Shown one piece after another: positions 694 through 12,908 of a DNA stretch of 12,908 bases. The translations under genes and the position numbers were made by a program. Under the pieces are notes generated by a model. It made no database searches and was not told the origin of the DNA. It saw only the letters and a program-made list of their open reading frames with translations. Origin of the DNA: Candidatus Omnitrophota bacterium. Its GTDB lineage: Bacteria; Omnitrophota; Gorgyraeia; Gygaellales; Profunditerraquicolaceae. The first letter of the stretch is position 1. Each line of letters opens with the position of its first letter. The stretch is from positions 1 to 12,908 of the forward strand of contig CAIVOB010000125.1 in NCBI GenBank assembly GCA_903907475.1, given 5' to 3'.

Positions 694-1881
694 TTATTCC
701 AGGTAGGTGTAAATCTTGCCTTTATAATTACGCAAAACATATTTACCCTTGGCCTGGGAAAGAATATAATTTGGTCCCACGGGAATTTTTCCGCCGCCGC
801 CGGGGCCGTCAATCACATAGGTCGGGACAGCATATCCTGAGGTATGTCCGCGTAATTTCTCAATAATATTTATCCCGCTGGCTACCGGAGTGCGAAAATG
901 CTGTGTACCGCGCACCGGATCGCATTGATAAATATAGTAAGGCCGCACTCTAATTTGTAATAACTCATGCACCAAACGTTTCATAATATAAGGCCGGTCA
1001 TTGATGCCTTTGAGTAACACCGACTGACTGCCCAGAGGCACTCCCGCCTCAGAAAGCATATCGCAAGCATTTTTACAACGTTTGGTAATCTCTTTCGGAT
1101 GATTAAAATGAATACTCATCCAAATCGGCGAATATTTTTTTAGCATATTCACTAAATTTTCAGTAACCCGCTGCGGTAAAGTTACCGGAACCCGCGTACC
1201 GATTCTTAATAACTCAACATGCGAAATGGCGCGAATTTTTGAAATCAAAGCTTCCAGGACCTCATCCTCTAAAGTTAACGGATCTCCTCCGGAAATTAAA
1301 ACATCTCTAATCTTTCGATTGGCTTTAATATAATCAATGGCGGCGTCAAATTTAGTGGCCGGATCTCCTTCTTTTTCTTCATGATCACCAACCAAACGCC
1401 GGCGCGTGCAATGACGGCAATACATCGCGCAATGATCTGTGGCAAGCAATAAAACCCGATCTGGATAACGGTGCACTAAATGACTCGCCGGAGAATCCCG
1501 ATCTTCAGCGCAAGGATCGGCCATTTCATGCGGAGAAATAAGAAATTCATCGCTCACCGGAACCGCTTGCCTGCGAATCGGACAGTTCTCATCCTCAGCG
1601 TCAATCAGGCTGGCCCAATAAGGAGTAATCGCCATCGCCAATCTTCCTTTAGCTTTATCAATTCCCTTCTCCTCGCTGGGAGTAAGCTTAATAATTTGCT
1701 CTAATTCTTCTTTTGTACGAATGCGATGCTTAAGCTGCCAATGCCAATCTTCCCAATCCAAAGGATTAACATCTTTAAAAAGCGGAATTTGCTGATAATC
1801 ACGTGAGCGTTTGGGAGCGCGGGTAATTACCGGCGGCTCTAACTGCACTTTTTGATTTTCGACGCTTGTGGGATTACTCAA
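694..1881 (-). CDS. kamA: L-lysine 2,3-aminomutase (KamA family radical SAM enzyme)
   Basis: A 395-aa radical SAM/PLP enzyme, close to the usual length of about 400-420 aa. The [4Fe-4S]/SAM motif CxxxCxxC is C151, C155, C158, followed by TRRR. GGDPL is at 198-202. The PLP lysine is K365 in PGGGGK. D321 (YQCD) and D358 (VIDGPGGGG) correspond to D293 and D330 of the Clostridium subterminale enzyme, which bind the epsilon-amine of lysine; both offsets are 28. Glutamate-type 2,3-aminomutases differ at these positions, and EpmB-type proteins are shorter. The expected reaction is therefore L-lysine to L-beta-lysine in the cytosol. The start is TTG at 1881: AAAGGA lies 9 nt upstream (1891-1896) and the next Met is at residue 83. 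The gene overlaps the preceding ATP-grasp gene by 8 nt, so it is the third gene of a coupled operon. Family and substrate calls rest on motif residues; the product's fate is inferred from context. Confidence 0.93.
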   Translation of the reverse strand: MSNPTSVENQKVQLEPPVITRAPKRSRDYQQIPLFKDVNPLDWEDWHWQLKHRIRTKEELEQIIKLTPSEEKGIDKAKGRLAMAITPYWASLIDAEDENCPIRRQAVPVSDEFLISPHEMADPCAEDRDSPASHLVHRYPDRVLLLATDHCAMYCRHCTRRRLVGDHEEKEGDPATKFDAAIDYIKANRKIRDVLISGGDPLTLEDEVLEALISKIRAISHVELLRIGTRVPVTLPQRVTENLVNMLKKYSPIWMSIHFNHPKEITKRCKNACDMLSEAGVPLGSQSVLLKGINDRPYIMKRLVHELLQIRVRPYYIYQCDPVRGTQHFRTPVASGINIIEKLRGHTSGYAVPTYVIDGPGGGGKIPVGPNYILSQAKGKYVLRNYKGKIYTYLE

Positions 1882-2878
1882 TCTGCTTTTTCCTTTCTGA
1901 GGCGCTTAAAAGAATTGCCTCAATAAGATCTGCATATTTCATACCTGCGGCGTAAGCCATAATCGGAAAATTAGATTCATCGGGATCTAACCCCGGCAAA
2001 GGATTAATTTCTAAAACATAAGGCACATTAAATTTATCTAAACGAATATCGGTGCGCGAAATATCTAAACAGCCTACCGCCCGATGCGTACGCAAAGCGA
2101 CATCTTTAACGCGCGCAGTAGTTTCAGGATCTAACCGTGCCGGGCAATGGAATTCCGGAACCAACCCCAATTCACTATCGCCCTGAAATTCTTTCATCTT
2201 CCAAGAATAAAAATATTCTCCGCTTTTTTTACAATTTTCAAAATCAATCTCTAAAATCGGCAAAACCCGGGTTTTCCCGTTTTCTAAAATCCCCACCGTT
2301 AACTCTTTACCCTCGATAAACTCTTCCACCAAAGCCTCTTGACGATAAACCTCGATACACTCTTTAACTTTTTTATATAAATCTTCGGCGTTTTGCACGA
2401 CATTAGTTTTATTAATGCCTTTGGCCGAACCTTCACAATTAGGTTTGACGATTAAAGGAAATTTAAGTTCCCCGGCAAGCTCTTCGTTACCGCGCACAAA
2501 AAGCTGAAAATTCGGCGTGGGAATGCCTTCAGCTTTTAATATTTTTTTCGTTAAAGCCTTATTTAAAGCCAATGCCAAAGAAAATGTATCCGAACCAGTA
2601 TAAGGAATATTAAGATAATCTAGAACCGCCGGAACTTCCGACTCCCGGAACCGCCCATGTTTACCTTCGGCGATATTAAAAACCATATCCACGCGATTAT
2701 TTTTAAAGTAAGAAAATAAAGCCGGATACTCCACATCAATTGCTTCCACCGAATGCCCCTTATTCTTAAGCGCCGAAACCACGGAGTTGATTGTTTCTTC
2801 GGAATCACACTCCGAAAAATAATCCGCCGGCTTTAAAGGGTCTTTCTTTTTCAAATTATAAGTTAAAGCAACTTTCAT
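1874..2878 (-). CDS. D-Ala-D-Ala-ligase-like ATP-grasp enzyme (second of a tandem pair)
   Basis: 334 aa with ATP-grasp layout: N-terminal Rossmann-like part, K107 and K145 as likely ATP-binding lysines, small-residue loop VKPNCEGSAKG (144-154), EEFIEGKELTVGIL (185-198), R275/D277, and the metal site E290-I-N292-P in 'YVLEINPLPGL'. This is typical of the Ddl branch of carboxylate-amine ligases. Canonical Ddl signatures are missing, however: there is no N-terminal GGxSxEREVS and no HGxxGEDG; the latter is replaced by NIAEGKHGRFRESEVP (68-83). The acceptor loop keeps a P-G-L (294-296) like the Ddl PGM. It should form an amide bond using ATP, but substrates are probably not two D-alanines. The ATG at 2878 overlaps the stop of the upstream ligase as ATGA (4 nt), which indicates translational coupling. 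The 3' end overlaps kamA by 8 nt, so the substrate may be lysine or beta-lysine (inference). Confidence 0.85.
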   Translation of the reverse strand: MKVALTYNLKKKDPLKPADYFSECDSEETINSVVSALKNKGHSVEAIDVEYPALFSYFKNNRVDMVFNIAEGKHGRFRESEVPAVLDYLNIPYTGSDTFSLALALNKALTKKILKAEGIPTPNFQLFVRGNEELAGELKFPLIVKPNCEGSAKGINKTNVVQNAEDLYKKVKECIEVYRQEALVEEFIEGKELTVGILENGKTRVLPILEIDFENCKKSGEYFYSWKMKEFQGDSELGLVPEFHCPARLDPETTARVKDVALRTHRAVGCLDISRTDIRLDKFNVPYVLEINPLPGLDPDESNFPIMAYAAGMKYADLIEAILLSASERKKQIE

Positions 2879-3867
2879 TGGCTTAATCCATTCCGGCTCA
2901 ATGCGCTTTTTAGAATTCTACCGATCATCTCTTCATAAGTAATCCCAATATTCTGCGCTAAAAGCATAAAAACATCTTCGGTCGATAATGAAGGCAGCGG
3001 ATTAATCTCTAAAACGTAGGGATTGCCCTTATTGTCGACCCTAAAATCAACGCGCCCAAAATCCCGGCACTCTACCGCGCGATAAACTTTTAAAGCCAGA
3101 ACATCTAATTTTTGTTTTAATTCTTGAGTAATTTTAGCCGGGCAAATATATTCTAAGCGATCGGAAGTAATGCGCGCGAAGGTATAAAATTTATCATTTA
3201 ACTTTAATTTACCGTCAATTTTAATCTGCACCACCGGCAAAATTTCAGGATGCTCATTACCCACAATCGCCACCGTAAACTCCTGGCCAGAAATAAACTC
3301 TTCCACTAATGCCGGCTGTTTATAAGTATTAATAATAAAATCCACCTGTTTCTTTAATTCCTCTTTATTCTCCACGCGCGAACTCTCGCTCAACCCCTTC
3401 GATGAGCCTTCAAAACGCGGCTTCACAATTAAAGGGAAAGTACAATGATCGGAATCAATTAAATCCTGCGTCGAGCTAACTTCAAAAAACTTCGGCGTCG
3501 GGATTCCTTCGGCAATGAAAATTTTCTTCGCCATCACTTTATCTAAGGTTAACCCTAAAGTCAAAGCGTCGGCTCCCACAAAAGGAACTCCCGCCATTTC
3601 CAAAAGAATGGGAACCTGAGATTCCCGGTTCCTCCCCGTCAAGCCTTCAGAAATATTAAAAACAATATCTACTCCTAAATTACCGAATTTCTCCAATAGA
3701 TTAGCGGCATTGCCGATTTTTTTTACTTTAAAATTATTCGCGGCAATGGCGTTTGCGATGACATCAATCGTCGATGGGGCATCAAATTCCGCGTTGGCAT
3801 CCAGCGGATCCCCTTCCTTAAATTGATAATCTGTCTTTAAATCGTAAGTTAAACCAACAGTTTTCAT
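2875..3867 (-). CDS. D-Ala-D-Ala-ligase-like ATP-grasp enzyme (first of a tandem pair)
   Basis: 330 aa, paralogous to the gene just downstream. It has FNISEGLTGRNRESQVP (70-86) where Ddl has HGxxGEDG, then VKPRFEGSSKGLS (148-160), EEFISGQEFTVAIV (189-202), R272/D274 and the metal-binding E287-I-N289-P. An extra acidic segment near residues 18-35 (DPLDANAEFDAPSTID) stands where Ddl carries its substrate-binding EREVS motif. The acceptor loop reads NPLPSLST, lacking the glycine that follows N-T-x-P in Ddl and present in the sister enzyme (NPLPGL), so the two ligases may use different acceptors. The start ATG has AAGGA 4 nt upstream. This is the first gene after the promoter and structured leader at 3868-4097. 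Function as an amino-acid or peptide ligase is family-level knowledge; a role in a lysine/beta-lysine pathway is inferred from kamA. Confidence 0.85.
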   Translation of the reverse strand: MKTVGLTYDLKTDYQFKEGDPLDANAEFDAPSTIDVIANAIAANNFKVKKIGNAANLLEKFGNLGVDIVFNISEGLTGRNRESQVPILLEMAGVPFVGADALTLGLTLDKVMAKKIFIAEGIPTPKFFEVSSTQDLIDSDHCTFPLIVKPRFEGSSKGLSESSRVENKEELKKQVDFIINTYKQPALVEEFISGQEFTVAIVGNEHPEILPVVQIKIDGKLKLNDKFYTFARITSDRLEYICPAKITQELKQKLDVLALKVYRAVECRDFGRVDFRVDNKGNPYVLEINPLPSLSTEDVFMLLAQNIGITYEEMIGRILKSALSRNGLSQ

Positions 3868-3908
3868 AAATTCCTTAAATTGACTCCGCTGCTCCGTCTT
3901 GCTACGCC

Positions 3909-3940
3909 ATAATTTACGTCGCTACCACTCCGTAAATTAT
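3909..3940 (-). repeat. Perfect 10-bp stem hairpin in leader
   Basis: ATAATTTACG (minus strand 3940-3931) and CGTAAATTAT (3918-3909) pair perfectly around a 12-nt loop GAGTGGTAGCGA. No T-run follows, so it is not an intrinsic terminator by itself. Loop bases GAGTGGT (3930-3924) are complementary to ACCACTC (3969-3963) in the preceding hairpin. Confidence 0.6.
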
Positions 3941-3949
3941 TCACTCAAT

Positions 3950-3990
3950 AAAAAAGGGCCTGGAGTGGTGCTTAACTTTCCATGACCCTT
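3950..3990 (-). terminator. Terminator-like hairpin with T6 tract in operon leader
   Basis: On the minus strand AAGGG (3990-3986) pairs with CCCTT (3958-3954), with an inner TGG/CCA and AGT/ACT extension across small internal loops, and a run of six T at 3955-3950 follows the CCC. The layout is that of a weak intrinsic terminator. It lies downstream of the TTGACA promoter and upstream of the first ligase, so it would end a short RNA of about 110 nt or act as an attenuator. Confidence 0.55.
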
Positions 3991-4068
3991 AAGAATCTAT
4001 CCAATTTTTTCCAACTTAGTTTATCCAACCTCCCAAAATTTTACCCAATGACATGTAGCTATGCTCTT

Positions 4069-4097
4069 TTTTTACCACAAGATATGGGCATTGTCAA
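4069..4097 (-). promoter_or_regulatory. Sigma70-type promoter upstream of the ligase-kamA operon
   Basis: On the minus strand the -35 box is a perfect TTGACA (4097-4092), the spacer is 17 nt (4091-4075), and the -10 box is TAAAAA (4074-4069), 4 of 6 matches to TATAAT. Transcription would start near 4062. It sits in the largest intergenic gap of the window, which supports it as the start of a new transcription unit. Confidence 0.65.
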
Positions 4098-5827: not shown

Positions 5828-6955
5828 TTAAACAAACTTAAAATTTTTTAAAAATTCTACTAAAACTTTTACCCCACTTTCCAAATTCGTTAAACTAGCG
5901 TATTCATCGGCGATATGCGCACAACCTTCCGCGCCAAAGCCGGTGGCCAAAGCCGGAATTTTATGTTTTTTAAAAAAAGTAATTACCGTTGCCCCTTCTG
6001 AACCACTAATCCGAGAATTTACTCCAATACTTTGCATCGCGATATTTAAATTTTTTACCAAAGGATGCTGGGGGCTAATAAAATAAGGGGCCTGAATTCC
6101 TTGGATTTCAATTTTAAATTTACGGCTATACCTTGAGATAGTTTTCTTTAAATTATTAATAATTTTTTGCGCGCTCATTCCCGGTAAGAAACGATAATCT
6201 AATTCAAATTCACACCAATCGCTGACCACATTTACCTTATCCCCGCCCTTAATCGTGCCGACATTGATCGTCGGTTGATGTAAATATTTATTCACCTGAT
6301 ATTTTACCTTCTGTTTTTTCAAAACGGTAATAATTTGCGCTGCCTGCTCAATGGCATTTTCTCCAAGCCATGGGTAAGCGCCATGAGCTTTCTTCCCCTT
6401 TAAACGCACCTTAAGATGCATCAAGCCCTTCTGTGTCACCACAATTTCAAAATCATCAGCATCTAAAACTATTGCCGCATCCGCCTTTAATAATTTACGT
6501 TCTAATAAAGGAATGAGGCCTAAATTCGAACCGCTCTCTTCATCAGCGGTAGCCGCGAAAATTAAATTATAATCTAACTTCACTCCATCTTCCACTAAAC
6601 TTTTAATTGCCTCTAAACCCACGACCAAGTTACCTTTACAATCCGTCGCGCCTAAACCATAAATCTTATCCCCGCAGATTTTTCCCCGCAAAGGATTACT
6701 GCTCCAACTTTTTCCCGCCGGCACGGTATCTAAATGTGGAGTCAATAATAAAGATTTGGCTTTAGTTTGAGCTTGCAAAGTAGCGATAACATTAACGCGG
6801 TTCTTTTTAAAAGTATAAGTCTTAATTTTTAAACCGAGGCGCTTTAAATAAGCGGCGACAAAGAGCGCCACCTGCCTCTCATCACCCGGCGGATTTTGCG
6901 AATCCAAAGCAATCAATTCTTCTAAAGTTTTAATTAAACGCTTTTTATTTACCAT
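5828..6955 (-). CDS. M20 family metallopeptidase/deacylase (ArgE/DapE-like)
   Basis: 375 aa, the normal length for the family. The di-zinc site is complete: H74-x-D76 (TPHLDTVP), D105 (GATDCKGN), E139 catalytic and E140 metal ligand (ADEESGS), D165 (VLDADD) and H347 (CAHIADE). Residues about 177-290 form the lid/dimerisation domain, with H191 (KKAHGAYP) as the conserved transition-state histidine. Relatives hydrolyse N-acyl-amino acids, N-succinyl-diaminopimelate or small peptides. The sequence does not separate these, and the neighbours are not arginine or lysine biosynthesis genes, so I leave the substrate open. The start ATG at 6955 lies inside the end of the PilZ gene (11-nt overlap), implying coupling. 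It has no signal peptide and is probably cytosolic. Confidence 0.87.
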   Translation of the reverse strand: MVNKKRLIKTLEELIALDSQNPPGDERQVALFVAAYLKRLGLKIKTYTFKKNRVNVIATLQAQTKAKSLLLTPHLDTVPAGKSWSSNPLRGKICGDKIYGLGATDCKGNLVVGLEAIKSLVEDGVKLDYNLIFAATADEESGSNLGLIPLLERKLLKADAAIVLDADDFEIVVTQKGLMHLKVRLKGKKAHGAYPWLGENAIEQAAQIITVLKKQKVKYQVNKYLHQPTINVGTIKGGDKVNVVSDWCEFELDYRFLPGMSAQKIINNLKKTISRYSRKFKIEIQGIQAPYFISPQHPLVKNLNIAMQSIGVNSRISGSEGATVITFFKKHKIPALATGFGAEGCAHIADEYASLTNLESGVKVLVEFLKNFKFV

Positions 6956-8945: not shown

Positions 8946-9518
8946 TTACAAATTAATACAATTAAAAAAAATATTTTTCTCTAAAGCCAAATTTTTAAGT
9001 TTTTTAAAAACCTCCCAACTTAACTCCACATCCGCAAATGCCCGATGCACTTGAGGATGATCAAGTTTTAATTCTTGCGCCACCGTCGTAAGCGCGTAGC
9101 GCGCTAATCCCGGAAGAAGTTGGCGCGCCGCGCCCAATAAATCTAAAGTCGGCGGAATACTTACTGACAAATTCGAGAGTAATTTTAACTCCTGTTTAAT
9201 AAAATTTACATCAAACTCCGCGTTATAAGCGCAAAGATAACTGCCTTGAATAAAATCAAAAAATTTAGGTAATACCGCAGCCATACGAGGGGCATTTTCC
9301 AGCATTTGCGGAGTTATTTTATTCACCGCGAAAGCTCCCGGAGAAATCTCCCGGCCCGGATTAATCAAAGCTTCAAAAACCGCCAGGCGCGCTTGCCCCT
9401 TAACTCTTAACGCCGCCAACTCCACCACTCTATCTCCAGTAAAAGGATTAAGCCCGGTCGTTTCGGTATCGAATATAGTAAATTCTATTTCTTCAATATT
9501 TTTAAGCATCTTTGGCAT
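8946..9518 (-). CDS. DEDDh-family 3'-5' exonuclease (DnaQ/PolC epsilon-like)
   Basis: About 190 aa from the preferred start. The RNase H-fold exonuclease residues are all present: D17-x-E19 (FDTETTGLNP), D103 (YNAEFDVNF), H158 and D163 (HRAFADVEL). The body also has GDRVVELAALRV and the INPGREISPGAF stretch typical of DnaQ/PolC proofreading-type exonucleases. It degrades DNA or RNA 3' ends and could be a proofreading subunit, a repair nuclease or a stand-alone enzyme. It has no polymerase part and no GIY-YIG extension. The frame stays open up to an ATG at 9596, but that would overlap the DUF2156 gene by 95 nt and add an unconserved, basic leader. ATG 9518 (GAGG about 12 nt upstream) or 9509 (8-nt overlap) puts the DTETTG motif near the N-terminus, as is normal. 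Neither has a strong ribosome-binding site. Confidence 0.85.
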   Translation of the reverse strand: MPKMLKNIEEIEFTIFDTETTGLNPFTGDRVVELAALRVKGQARLAVFEALINPGREISPGAFAVNKITPQMLENAPRMAAVLPKFFDFIQGSYLCAYNAEFDVNFIKQELKLLSNLSVSIPPTLDLLGAARQLLPGLARYALTTVAQELKLDHPQVHRAFADVELSWEVFKKLKNLALEKNIFFNCINL

Positions 9519-10401
9519 AGGCGCAATAAGCCTCAACCATGCGCCTTGGCTTATAAGAGTTTTTAACTTTACGTAAACTTTCCAAACCCGAATCATCCAT
9601 AATGTTAATATATTTAAAATCCTTTAAATAAATAGCGAATGTCCGAAAAATAAATTGCGCTAATCCTTTGACCGTCAAATCCGTAATTTCATAAAAAATA
9701 CAAAAAGTATCCCGGTTTACCCTATACCCTAAAGTAAAACCTTTAATCTTATTCTTATCTCTGACGATGATGCCCTCTAGATTTAATTTTTCATAATTAG
9801 CAAAAGTTTCCTTGATCACTTTACGGTTATCTTCAATCATCCCGCGATACAAATCATCGCTAGAATTAGCCATCCGAGCTTTCGCCCAAGAATTAAATAA
9901 GTTTAAACAATCTTTAAAGTCAACCTTCCTTAAATCCCTAACGCTAAAATTATAATGTTTAATAAAATAATTATAAGCGGCGCGCTGCGATTTAAATTTA
10001 TTGCCCTTTAGCTCTACCAACTCCTGACGCGCGCAAAGATAATCCGCATCTTTGGCAAGCACCCGATACCCTAAATTTCGATAATAATCTTGAGCTCCTT
10101 GAGGAATATTTTCCACCCGCGAAATATCTTTATTCTTGTTAATCTCATCCATAATTTTAAATACTTTTGGCAATACTTCCGCCTGAGGTTTAGCCGCTAA
10201 AGGAGGAAGATACATAAAACAGCCGATAGCATCTTGAAAAAAAATACACAAACTCTCTTGGATTATTACCCAGCGAATTTTAAAAAGCGCCTTCCAAATA
10301 TAAATATTGGCAAAAGAAAATACCGCCAAATCAGTGGGAAGATAAGTTAAATAGTGCTTAAAAAGATCTTGGTCTTTGAGGGTGAGCTTATTTAATTCCA
10401 T
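9502..10401 (-). CDS. DUF2156 (phosphatidylglycerol lysyltransferase C-terminal-like) GNAT-fold protein
   Basis: 299 aa, soluble, without the multi-pass membrane half of MprF. It shows the hallmarks of the DUF2156/COG4866 group: FANIYIW (30-36), a DYLCARQELVELKGNKFKSQR segment (120-140) followed by RAAYNYF, FYEITDLTVKGLAQFIF (236-252) and NIMDDSGLESLRKVKNSYKP (266-285). The family has two tandem GNAT-like folds. The MprF relatives transfer lysine or alanine from aminoacyl-tRNA to phosphatidylglycerol, while the soluble homologues are uncharacterised. Its position two genes downstream of a stand-alone tRNA-binding domain fits a link to aminoacyl-tRNA, but this is weak inference. The ATG at 10401 overlaps the end of the YkgJ-like gene by 14 nt; the bases just upstream are CCCC, so initiation probably relies on coupling. 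Confidence 0.83.
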   Translation of the reverse strand: MELNKLTLKDQDLFKHYLTYLPTDLAVFSFANIYIWKALFKIRWVIIQESLCIFFQDAIGCFMYLPPLAAKPQAEVLPKVFKIMDEINKNKDISRVENIPQGAQDYYRNLGYRVLAKDADYLCARQELVELKGNKFKSQRAAYNYFIKHYNFSVRDLRKVDFKDCLNLFNSWAKARMANSSDDLYRGMIEDNRKVIKETFANYEKLNLEGIIVRDKNKIKGFTLGYRVNRDTFCIFYEITDLTVKGLAQFIFRTFAIYLKDFKYINIMDDSGLESLRKVKNSYKPRRMVEAYCAYAKDA

Positions 10402-10897
10402 GGGGAAAATTTAATTCCGCGACTTCTCTGACCTCTTCATAGGCCTGAATAATCTGCGGATTATTTTTCAGCATCTGAATTTGTCGGGCAGAATTAAGAT
10501 AATCCGAAAGATAAGCAATATAATCCTTGGCTTCCGGCGTATTAATTTTTTCATAAAGATAGGGACAATTTAAATCAACGGTCAATAAAACCTTGCCCTT
10601 ACGTAAATTAAGTAAAAAAGGATAAAGCTGACATTCAAAGGGGCGCAAAGCATAAATTTGGCAATGATTAGTCGCGACTTTTAAAAAGGGACAGACAAAA
10701 CCTTCTCCCTCGAGATTAACTACCGGCATAATTCTGCGCTCCACGGAAAGGGCAGCGGCGGGAATATCTTTCCGCTCTAACAAGCCCTGGATCTCCTCAT
10801 CCAATAAACAAGGGCTCCACACTGAAATTGCCTCCTTAAAACGGCAGCAGCCTTGACAGGCCAAACAAACTTCAGTCGGAACAAATTGCCGAATCAC
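10388..10897 (-). CDS. YkgJ family cysteine-cluster (putative metal-binding) protein
   Basis: 169 aa from the chosen GTG start. CLACQGCC near the N-terminus gives C11-xx-C14-xx-C17-C18, the CxxCxxCC signature of the YkgJ/UPF0153 family. It is followed by C69 (FVCPFL), C79, C89 in RPFECQLYPF and C111 (LNCPY), eight cysteines in all. The family is predicted to chelate Zn or Fe (possibly an Fe-S cluster); function unknown. The frame is open to a TTG at 10936, but that start overlaps the tRNA-binding gene by 43 nt. GTG 10897 has GGGGAG 9 nt upstream (10907-10912) and makes a 4-nt GTGA overlap with the preceding stop, so I prefer it. It overlaps the DUF2156 gene by 14 nt, consistent with an operon. 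Confidence 0.83.
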   Translation of the reverse strand: MIRQFVPTEVCLACQGCCRFKEAISVWSPCLLDEEIQGLLERKDIPAAALSVERRIMPVVNLEGEGFVCPFLKVATNHCQIYALRPFECQLYPFLLNLRKGKVLLTVDLNCPYLYEKINTPEAKDYIAYLSDYLNSARQIQMLKNNPQIIQAYEEVREVAELNFPHGIK

Positions 10898-11214
10898 TTG
10901 ACAATACTCCCCAACTTTAAATTCTTTTCCGGACAAATTAGTGCTAATCCGCTTTCATCGGAACCGGCTAAAACCATTCCCTGGCTTTCCACTCCGCGCA
11001 AAATCGCCGGCTCAAGATTATCCACTAAAACTACTTGCTTACCGATTAGTCCCTCTTTAGTATAAAAACTTTTAATTCCCGCCACGACCTGTTTTTGGCG
11101 ATCGCCTAAATCTAAAGTTAAAATCACCAGTTTATCCGCGTTCGGGTGATCATTAACCTCTTTAATCTGCGCCACCCTCAACTCTAACTTCCTAAAATCA
11201 TCAATCGTAATCAT
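10894..11214 (-). CDS. Stand-alone tRNA-binding domain protein (MetRS C-terminal/Trbp111-like)
   Basis: 106 aa, entirely an OB-fold tRNA-binding domain. It begins ITIDDFRKLELRVAQI (2-17), then NADKLVILTLDLG (25-37), VVAGIKSFY (43-51) and VDNLEPAILRGVESQGMVLA (64-83). These match the C-terminal appendix of bacterial methionyl-tRNA synthetase and free proteins such as Trbp111. Such domains dimerise and bind tRNA non-specifically. The MetRS catalytic part is not adjacent: the upstream neighbour is a barrel protein. It may therefore work in trans with a short MetRS or serve another tRNA-using enzyme. It starts at ATG 11214 with a strong AAGGAGG (11219-11225), 31 nt after the barrel gene. Its stop TGA overlaps the GTG of the cysteine-cluster gene. 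Confidence 0.9.
   Translation of the reverse strand: MITIDDFRKLELRVAQIKEVNDHPNADKLVILTLDLGDRQKQVVAGIKSFYTKEGLIGKQVVLVDNLEPAILRGVESQGMVLAGSDESGLALICPEKNLKLGSIVK
10907..10912 (-). promoter_or_regulatory. Ribosome binding site deciding the YkgJ-like start
   Basis: GGGGAG on the minus strand, 9 nt before GTG at 10897. It favours this start, with a GTGA overlap, over the TTG at 10936. Confidence 0.6.
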
Positions 11215-12859: not shown

Positions 12860-12908
12860 TGGCGGGGCCGACGAGATTTGAACTCGCGATCTCCTCCGTG
12901 ACAGGGAG
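12860..12908 (-). tRNA. tRNA-Asp (anticodon GTC), 3' part; 5' half outside window
   Basis: On the minus strand the window edge enters the anticodon stem. CTCC-CTGTCAC-GGAG gives the 7-nt anticodon loop with GTC at 12902-12900, followed by a 5-nt variable loop AGATC. The T arm is GCGAG-TTCAAAT-CTCGT (first pair G-T), then the acceptor strand CGGCCCC, discriminator G and an encoded CCA at 12862-12860. Anticodon GTC plus G73 fits tRNA-Asp. The D arm and the 5' acceptor strand lie beyond the window. Confidence 0.93.

Follow-up and report, generated by a model that had tools for sequence, protein, structure and literature searches.

The ligA-ligB-kamA operon

The window analysed here is a single 12.9-kb contig (12,908 nucleotides, nt) from a 1.19-Mb, 94% complete metagenome-assembled genome of a Candidatus Omnitrophota bacterium, in which open reading frame (ORF) calling identifies a tight three-gene operon on the minus strand, ligA-ligB-kamA. 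The first gene, ligA (2875..3867, 330 amino acids, aa), and the second, ligB (1874..2878, 334 aa), encode non-canonical Ddl-like ATP-grasp ligases, while the third, kamA (694..1881, 395 aa, TTG start), encodes a predicted L-lysine 2,3-aminomutase of the radical S-adenosylmethionine and pyridoxal phosphate (PLP) dependent type. The ORF coordinates confirm the overlaps of 4 nt between ligA and ligB (2875-2878) and 8 nt between ligB and kamA (1874-1881) that had been reported in an earlier note on this DNA. Named relatives of the window ligA are from Candidatus Omnitrophica/Omnitrophota. The earlier note proposed that the operon makes beta-lysine and ligates it into a conjugate, and the evidence set out below makes it probable that these genes encode a route to a small peptide or amide with beta-lysine as its building block.

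Identity of KamA

KamA scores 534.8 bits against the lysine 2,3-aminomutase equivalog model TIGR03820, passing the cut-off of 525.4, and aligns with the structure PDB 2a5h (E 7e-147) with a constant offset of 28 in the residue block aligned, D321, D358 and K365 corresponding to chain residues 293, 330 and 337. The claim that KamA keeps both Asp residues and the PLP lysine was upheld by this mapping, and all 99 KamA sequences aligned from the Omnitrophota and outside sets share the Cys triad, D321, D358 and K365; D321 and D358 are presumably the residues that bind the lysine side chain. Identity as a glutamate or arginine 2,3-aminomutase or as EpmB was rejected, the models concerned falling below their own cut-offs (252.5 bits against 369.3 in the case of EpmB) with the residues also speaking against it. 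Conversion of lysine to beta-lysine by KamA is strongly supported by its family membership. In passing the cut-off and in its Cys triad, PLP lysine and both lysine-site Asp residues the window protein resembles KamA/AblA (TIGR03820, 2a5h), but it differs in adjoining ATP-grasp ligases rather than AblB or fermentation genes, and in being fused to a ligase in four genomes (see below).

The ligases and canonical Ddl

LigA and LigB share 40% identity, both match Dala_Dala_lig_C (PF07478), and their closest solved relatives are Ddl enzymes. An AlphaFold2 model of LigA (mean predicted local distance difference test score 87.6), structure models being used for fold only, has the Ddl fold. Against the Ddl model NF002378, which has a cut-off of 243 bits, LigB scores 204 and LigA 186, and neither protein reaches the threshold of any Ddl model that appears in the list of the 25 best models. 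The Ddl N-terminal domain PF01820 has no match in LigA or LigB at E 0.001, whereas it was found in the two canonical Ddl relatives scanned (1.8e-20 and 4.2e-16).

Alignment revealed that the Ddl donor and acceptor motifs are altered group by group with the ATP-grasp residues intact. The HGxxGEDG columns H63/E68/D69 read E/R/E in 20/20 LigA and 12/12 LigB sequences but H/E/D in 10/10 canonical enzymes, while K97, K144, E180, E187, R255, D257, E270 and N272, which we take to be the catalytic ATP-grasp positions, are kept in all 20 LigA and all 12 LigB sequences. In every one of the 20 LigA sequences the column of the acceptor Ser (S281) is Asp and the K215 column, in a low-confidence loop, is Ile or Leu, lysine being kept there in the other groups. 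The residues E27, D29 and E74 of LigA may form an acidic donor pocket suited to a diamine.

In the phylogeny that the earlier note had called for, canonical Ddl forms one clade (100/100) with LigA (100/100) and LigB (96/99) falling outside it, and the node uniting LigA, LigB and the lig1 ligases of other phyla (see below) has moderate support (90/69). The description of the two ligases as non-canonical Ddl-like ATP-grasp enzymes is therefore sound, since they match Dala_Dala_lig_C, form clades of their own and have the Ddl motif replaced. In their fold and intact ATP-grasp residues they are like canonical Ddl, from which they differ in the absent HGxxGEDG motif and PF01820 match, the changed acceptor site, the separate clades and a location outside the mur/fts cluster.

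A separate Ddl carrying the GEDG motif was present in the mur/fts cluster of 10/10 relatives fetched. The gene order there, read by eye, is murC-murB-ddl-ftsQ-ftsA; Pfam confirmed all five families in one of these loci (L162) and three of them (MurC-type, Ddl and FtsA) in another (L163), and as a control kamA was found within ~3 kb on either side in 0/10 of the canonical ddl loci. In the genome of the window the Ddl-like matches were ligA, ligB and weak ATP-grasp matches only; its murC-region match is followed by only ~170 bases before the end of its 3,906-base contig. With murC so close to a contig end, the ddl missing from this genome was probably lost to an assembly gap. The possibility that ligA and ligB are the sole Ddl genes, which the earlier note had set against its own proposal, is ruled out for the lineage because the relatives hold a separate canonical ddl.

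Linkage of ligase genes and kamA within Omnitrophota

Among same-genus genomes KamA was found in 22/26, the four without it being 69-82% complete. Six order-level relatives (G035, G036, G040, G041, G043 and G046) have ligA-kamA with no ligB between or beside the two genes, such that two ligases are no fixed feature of the operon. In a relative with ligA only, an AMP-binding (acyl-CoA synthetase-like) gene directly follows kamA (L047:2373-3872).

To cover the phylum an even draw of 285 genomes was searched (KamA at E <= 1e-60, ligA-type at E <= 1e-45), giving KamA in 154 genomes and ligA-type matches in 168. Of the 110 strongest Omnitrophota KamA places, 104 are preceded on the same strand by a ligA-type gene no more than 3 kb away. 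Of the six places without one, two (G042 and G260) begin at the edge of a contig, one genome (G244) carries ligA on another contig, and one (G309) has ligB and another ligase in place of ligA, the other two being G266 and G307. In four genomes (G234, G280, G285 and G293; loci L062-L065) KamA and a ligA-like domain form one protein of 724-814 aa that is followed by a second ligase, with a GNAT acetyltransferase gene after the fusion and ligase in all three of the loci scanned for one (L062, L064 and L065). At three further loci (L067:8889-9878, L068:8424-9413 and L071:6155-7144) kamA-lig is followed by a gene for a 329-aa protein with weak Pfam ATP-grasp similarity (E 0.02-0.04) and, in L067, weak matches to the RimK/LysX models of NCBIfam, possibly a second ligase of another family.

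kamA-lig1-lig2 operons in other phyla

Outside the phylum, a scan with one Desulfobacterales ligase confirmed at least 579 relatives, and the 80 most similar to it were examined. These loci are named as Desulfobacterota families, Planctomycetota, Bacteroidota, Gammaproteobacteria, Acidobacteria, Aminicenantes, Neomarinimicrobiota, WOR-3, Fibrobacter and others, the taxa being taken from record names in which bin names may err. The usual order in this set is kamA-lig1-lig2. By tblastn, kamA is upstream of lig1 in 73/80 loci (68 of the 71 with at least 1.5 kb of room) and lig2 downstream in 73/80 (68 of the 73 with 1.1 kb of room), both occurring in 67 loci and both together with a GNAT gene in 55; only L112, L117 and L130 lack kamA despite room for it. 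GNAT genes are present in 58/80 loci (45 of the 52 with 4 kb of room), genes of the HDAC/APAH (acetylpolyamine amidohydrolase) type in 29/80 (18/52 with the same room) and a CxxCxxCC gene in 14/80, and no other neighbour family was found in more than six of the 80. In some Planctomycetota loci, L099 and L132 among them, the CxxCxxCC gene stands between kamA and lig1, and one 496-aa protein (P0152) is a fusion of an N-terminal CxxCxxCC domain with a lig1-type ligase. The named isolate Desulfatitalea alkaliphila M08but (L089) carries kamA, lig1, lig2, HDAC-type and GNAT genes together. A plasmid search returned one distant ATP-grasp match with no kamA annotated near it.

The HDAC-type domain was tested in two outside proteins, and the solved structures closest to it are acetylpolyamine amidohydrolases (PDB 9gkz and 6phr; E 2.6e-75), from which the outside domain differs in being joined to GNAT in one gene or placed beside a GNAT gene, and it is absent from the window genome, where PF00850 has no match. 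For the outside GNAT the nearest solved protein is 2r7h, named 'putative D-alanine N-acetyltransferase'. The window operon is like the outside kamA-lig1-lig2-GNAT module in that kamA adjoins a lig1-type ligase, but its second ligase, LigB, belongs to a separate clade and is not of the lig2 type, and it consists of three genes without GNAT or HDAC/APAH.

The neighbourhood search suggested in the earlier note therefore found the association both in Omnitrophota and beyond, and because the gene order varies by lineage (lig-kamA or kamA-lig) the linkage is more than inherited synteny. The recurrent theme is KamA with a lig1-type ligase, often with a second ligase of varying origin; of the proposed conserved trio, the lig-kamA pairing holds across the phylum and beyond while the second ligase is not constant. 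The statement that no acetyltransferase or fermentation gene is visible holds for the window, where the proteins scanned for families included neither a fermentation gene product nor an acetyltransferase like those of the outside operons. As regards the acetyltransferase it does not extend to the wider family, in which GNAT genes are frequent and genes for an APAH-like deacetylase turn up now and then.

A pathway built on beta-lysine and its alternatives

In the proposed route KamA would convert L-lysine to L-beta-lysine, which would then serve as one partner of a Ddl-fold ATP-grasp ligase. Enzymes of the ATP-grasp type ligate through an acyl-phosphate, and here a carboxylate would be activated with ATP to the acyl-phosphate and transferred onto an amine. 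LigA would form the first bond, and genomes that also have LigB would use it for a further bond or for another product, although the order of bonds and the product are themselves conjecture. In other phyla these enzymes would be joined by a second, only distantly related ligase, in many cases also by GNAT and in some by an APAH-like deacetylase. There the route would include acetylation and deacetylation of an amino group, most probably one of the diamine, as the presence of GNAT and APAH-like genes in these loci indicates; the pair suggests amine capping or protection in those lineages. The coupling of beta-lysine formation to ligation is strongly supported by the genomic evidence, the KamA-ligase fusion proteins making it the best reading. 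The part of the earlier proposal that stands is thus the coupling, while the ligase substrate, its partner and the role of the product are deduced at one remove. As to role, an intracellular stress or compatible-solute peptide is the leading guess ahead of a cell-wall part, held with low certainty, and one paper reports Omnitrophota to be prevalent in non-saline samples (PMC10066038), which speaks against it.

Several points weigh against a beta-lysine pathway. That beta-lysine is the ligase substrate is deduced from linkage and fusion, and D-Ala could be the substrate instead with KamA serving a neighbouring step, given that annotation labels Ddl-like ligases as acting on D-Ala and that the GNAT relative 2r7h is named a D-alanine N-acetyltransferase. 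Without the K215-column lysine the chemistry of LigA may differ or be weak. The KamA of one outside operon (L082) scores 499 against the equivalog cut-off of 525, just under it, and the outside set is biased towards its Desulfobacterales query, limiting the evidence of linkage there to the closest relatives. No common transporter, regulator or riboswitch hinting at a role was seen in the outside loci, where a riboswitch scan of 11 gave one cobalamin riboswitch only. Finally, the window operon has neither GNAT nor HDAC genes and so this variant may make a different product.

The strongest competitor, which we regard as unlikely, is that the ligases build a D-amino-acid or beta-lysine peptide altering peptidoglycan stems or cross-bridges. 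In keeping with this the fold and closest solved relatives are those of Ddl, at one outside locus (L153) the gene after GNAT encodes a three-domain Mur ligase, an LPG_synthase_C gene lies farther upstream of the window ligA on the same strand, and the accessible part of a genome study of lichen Nostoc has its authors suggesting such a role for a second, 'type 3' Ddl (PMC5987646). However, the lig-kamA genes lie outside the mur/fts cluster that is home to canonical ddl in all ten fetched loci, no cell-wall gene was recognised by eye among the neighbour families found in at least three of the best 80 outside loci, and the Ddl signature residues are replaced in LigA and LigB. Rather less probable is that beta-lysine or N-epsilon-acetyl-beta-lysine is the end product, an osmolyte of the AblA/AblB kind, with the ligases as unrelated neighbours. 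KamA is known for this osmolyte and GNAT is frequent in the outside operons, and Na+ riboswitches are linked to ablA in some bacteria according to the available part of one paper (PMC9337991). Even so, the ablB model TIGR03827 has no match in the genome (as a control it matches in 5/14, with Methanosarcina and Bacillus among the matches, and exceeds its cut-off in three), no Na+ or cyclic di-AMP riboswitch was detected in the 11 outside loci scanned, and the KamA-ligase fusions demand a role for the ligase. The N-epsilon-acetyl-beta-lysine pathway (AblA with AblB) thus resembles the system in its KamA step and in the GNAT that outside operons often add, and differs in that the window has two peptide ligases and its genome no ablB match.

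Two further readings carry still less weight. The ligases as redundant or specialised D-Ala-D-Ala (or D-Ala-D-X) enzymes, with kamA linked through a shared supply of lysine and cell-wall precursors, would fit the near-whole-length homology to Ddl seen with NF002378, but the sub-threshold scores against the Ddl models, the position in the tree apart from the fully supported canonical clade and the replacement of the acceptor Ser by Asp in LigA make this improbable. Use of beta-lysine in beta-lysylation of EF-P or in lysine fermentation appears most remote of all: the KamA family does include EpmB and beta-lysine is the first intermediate of lysine fermentation, yet KamA scores far under the EpmB cut-off and the EpmA model matches in one 467-aa ORF only, at 50 against 287 bits at best. 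The lysine 5,6-aminomutase model PF09043 has no match in the genome, nor in any control.

The small-peptide or amide pathway built on beta-lysine could be one case of a widespread class of beta-lysine peptides made by Ddl-derived ligases, with the diamine acetylated in many phyla and deacetylated in some, and Omnitrophota holding a stripped-down ligA/ligB version under a novel attenuated leader RNA; this broader scheme is speculative and, taken as a whole, more doubtful than the pathway itself. If the pathway is right, proteins of Planctomycetota, Desulfobacterota, Bacteroidota, Omnitrophota and others that carry the name D-alanine-D-alanine ligase work in another pathway, and the KamA enzymes partnered with them supply the making of peptides instead of fermentation or a simple osmolyte; D. 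alkaliphila M08but could then bring the product within reach of gene deletion and metabolomics. A search of the literature, mostly of non-subscription texts, found no description of a kamA-ligase module, which is no proof of novelty, and the accessible parts of PMC6701809, PMC10066038 and PMC12855168 do not describe the operon. The lichen Nostoc study, itself accessible in part, is the sole paper recognised as a possible match: it has an extra Ddl of non-cell-wall type in an operon and LAM among its abbreviations, but its interpretation is peptidoglycan modification (PMC5987646).

Promoter and leader of the operon

The single promoter claimed for the operon is plausible. A putative promoter at 4069..4097 on the minus strand, read from the sequence, has a -35 box TTGACA (4097-4092) and a -10-like box TAAAAA (4074-4069) at 17-nt spacing, and CTTGACAAT is strongly conserved in an alignment of the window with 20 same-genus loci (L025 was excluded as its upstream region lies off the contig). 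The exact box pattern was present in 23/178 fetched loci, all covering the leader. A generic consensus scanner did not list the TTGACA site, finding 10 promoter-like sites in all against 9.7 in shuffles.

The same 21-sequence alignment outlines a leader block at 3950..4062 on the minus strand, GGAGG...AAGTTGGAAAAAATTGGATAGAT, with a terminator-like hairpin and T-run at its end (3950-3990). Its mean column identity is 73% and the consensus hairpin has 8 pairs, although the copy in the window is no more stable than shuffles (z 1.16). Across the genus an AAGTTGG..A.AAT block is strongly conserved in the region 3950-4097. No Rfam family came near its gathering score in the leader, and a leader peptide was rejected as its start codon and frame are not conserved in the alignment as read by eye. 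The region 3950-4097 is possibly an attenuator or a new cis-regulatory RNA.

Other genes of the window

The conserved housekeeping neighbours (EF-G-like, YchF-C, PurH, FolC-type, M20 deacylase, PAC2 and HAD genes) resemble regional synteny more than pathway partners, and none was recognised among the neighbour families shared by the outside operons. The M20 gene (5828-6955, minus strand) encodes a deacylase of the ArgE/DapE family (TIGR01910, over the cut-off) and lies upstream of ligA in 8/18 Omnitrophota loci compared; it could act on a diamino compound, yet the region resembles general synteny. Farther upstream on the minus strand (9502-10936) an LPG_synthase_C (lysyltransferase-type) gene at 9502-10401 adjoins a CxxCxxCC gene, homologues of the two forming one fused ORF at L072:13622-15001. 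At 12863-12908 on the minus strand lies the 3' part of a tRNA gene (Rfam tRNA, 31 bits) cut by the end of the window.

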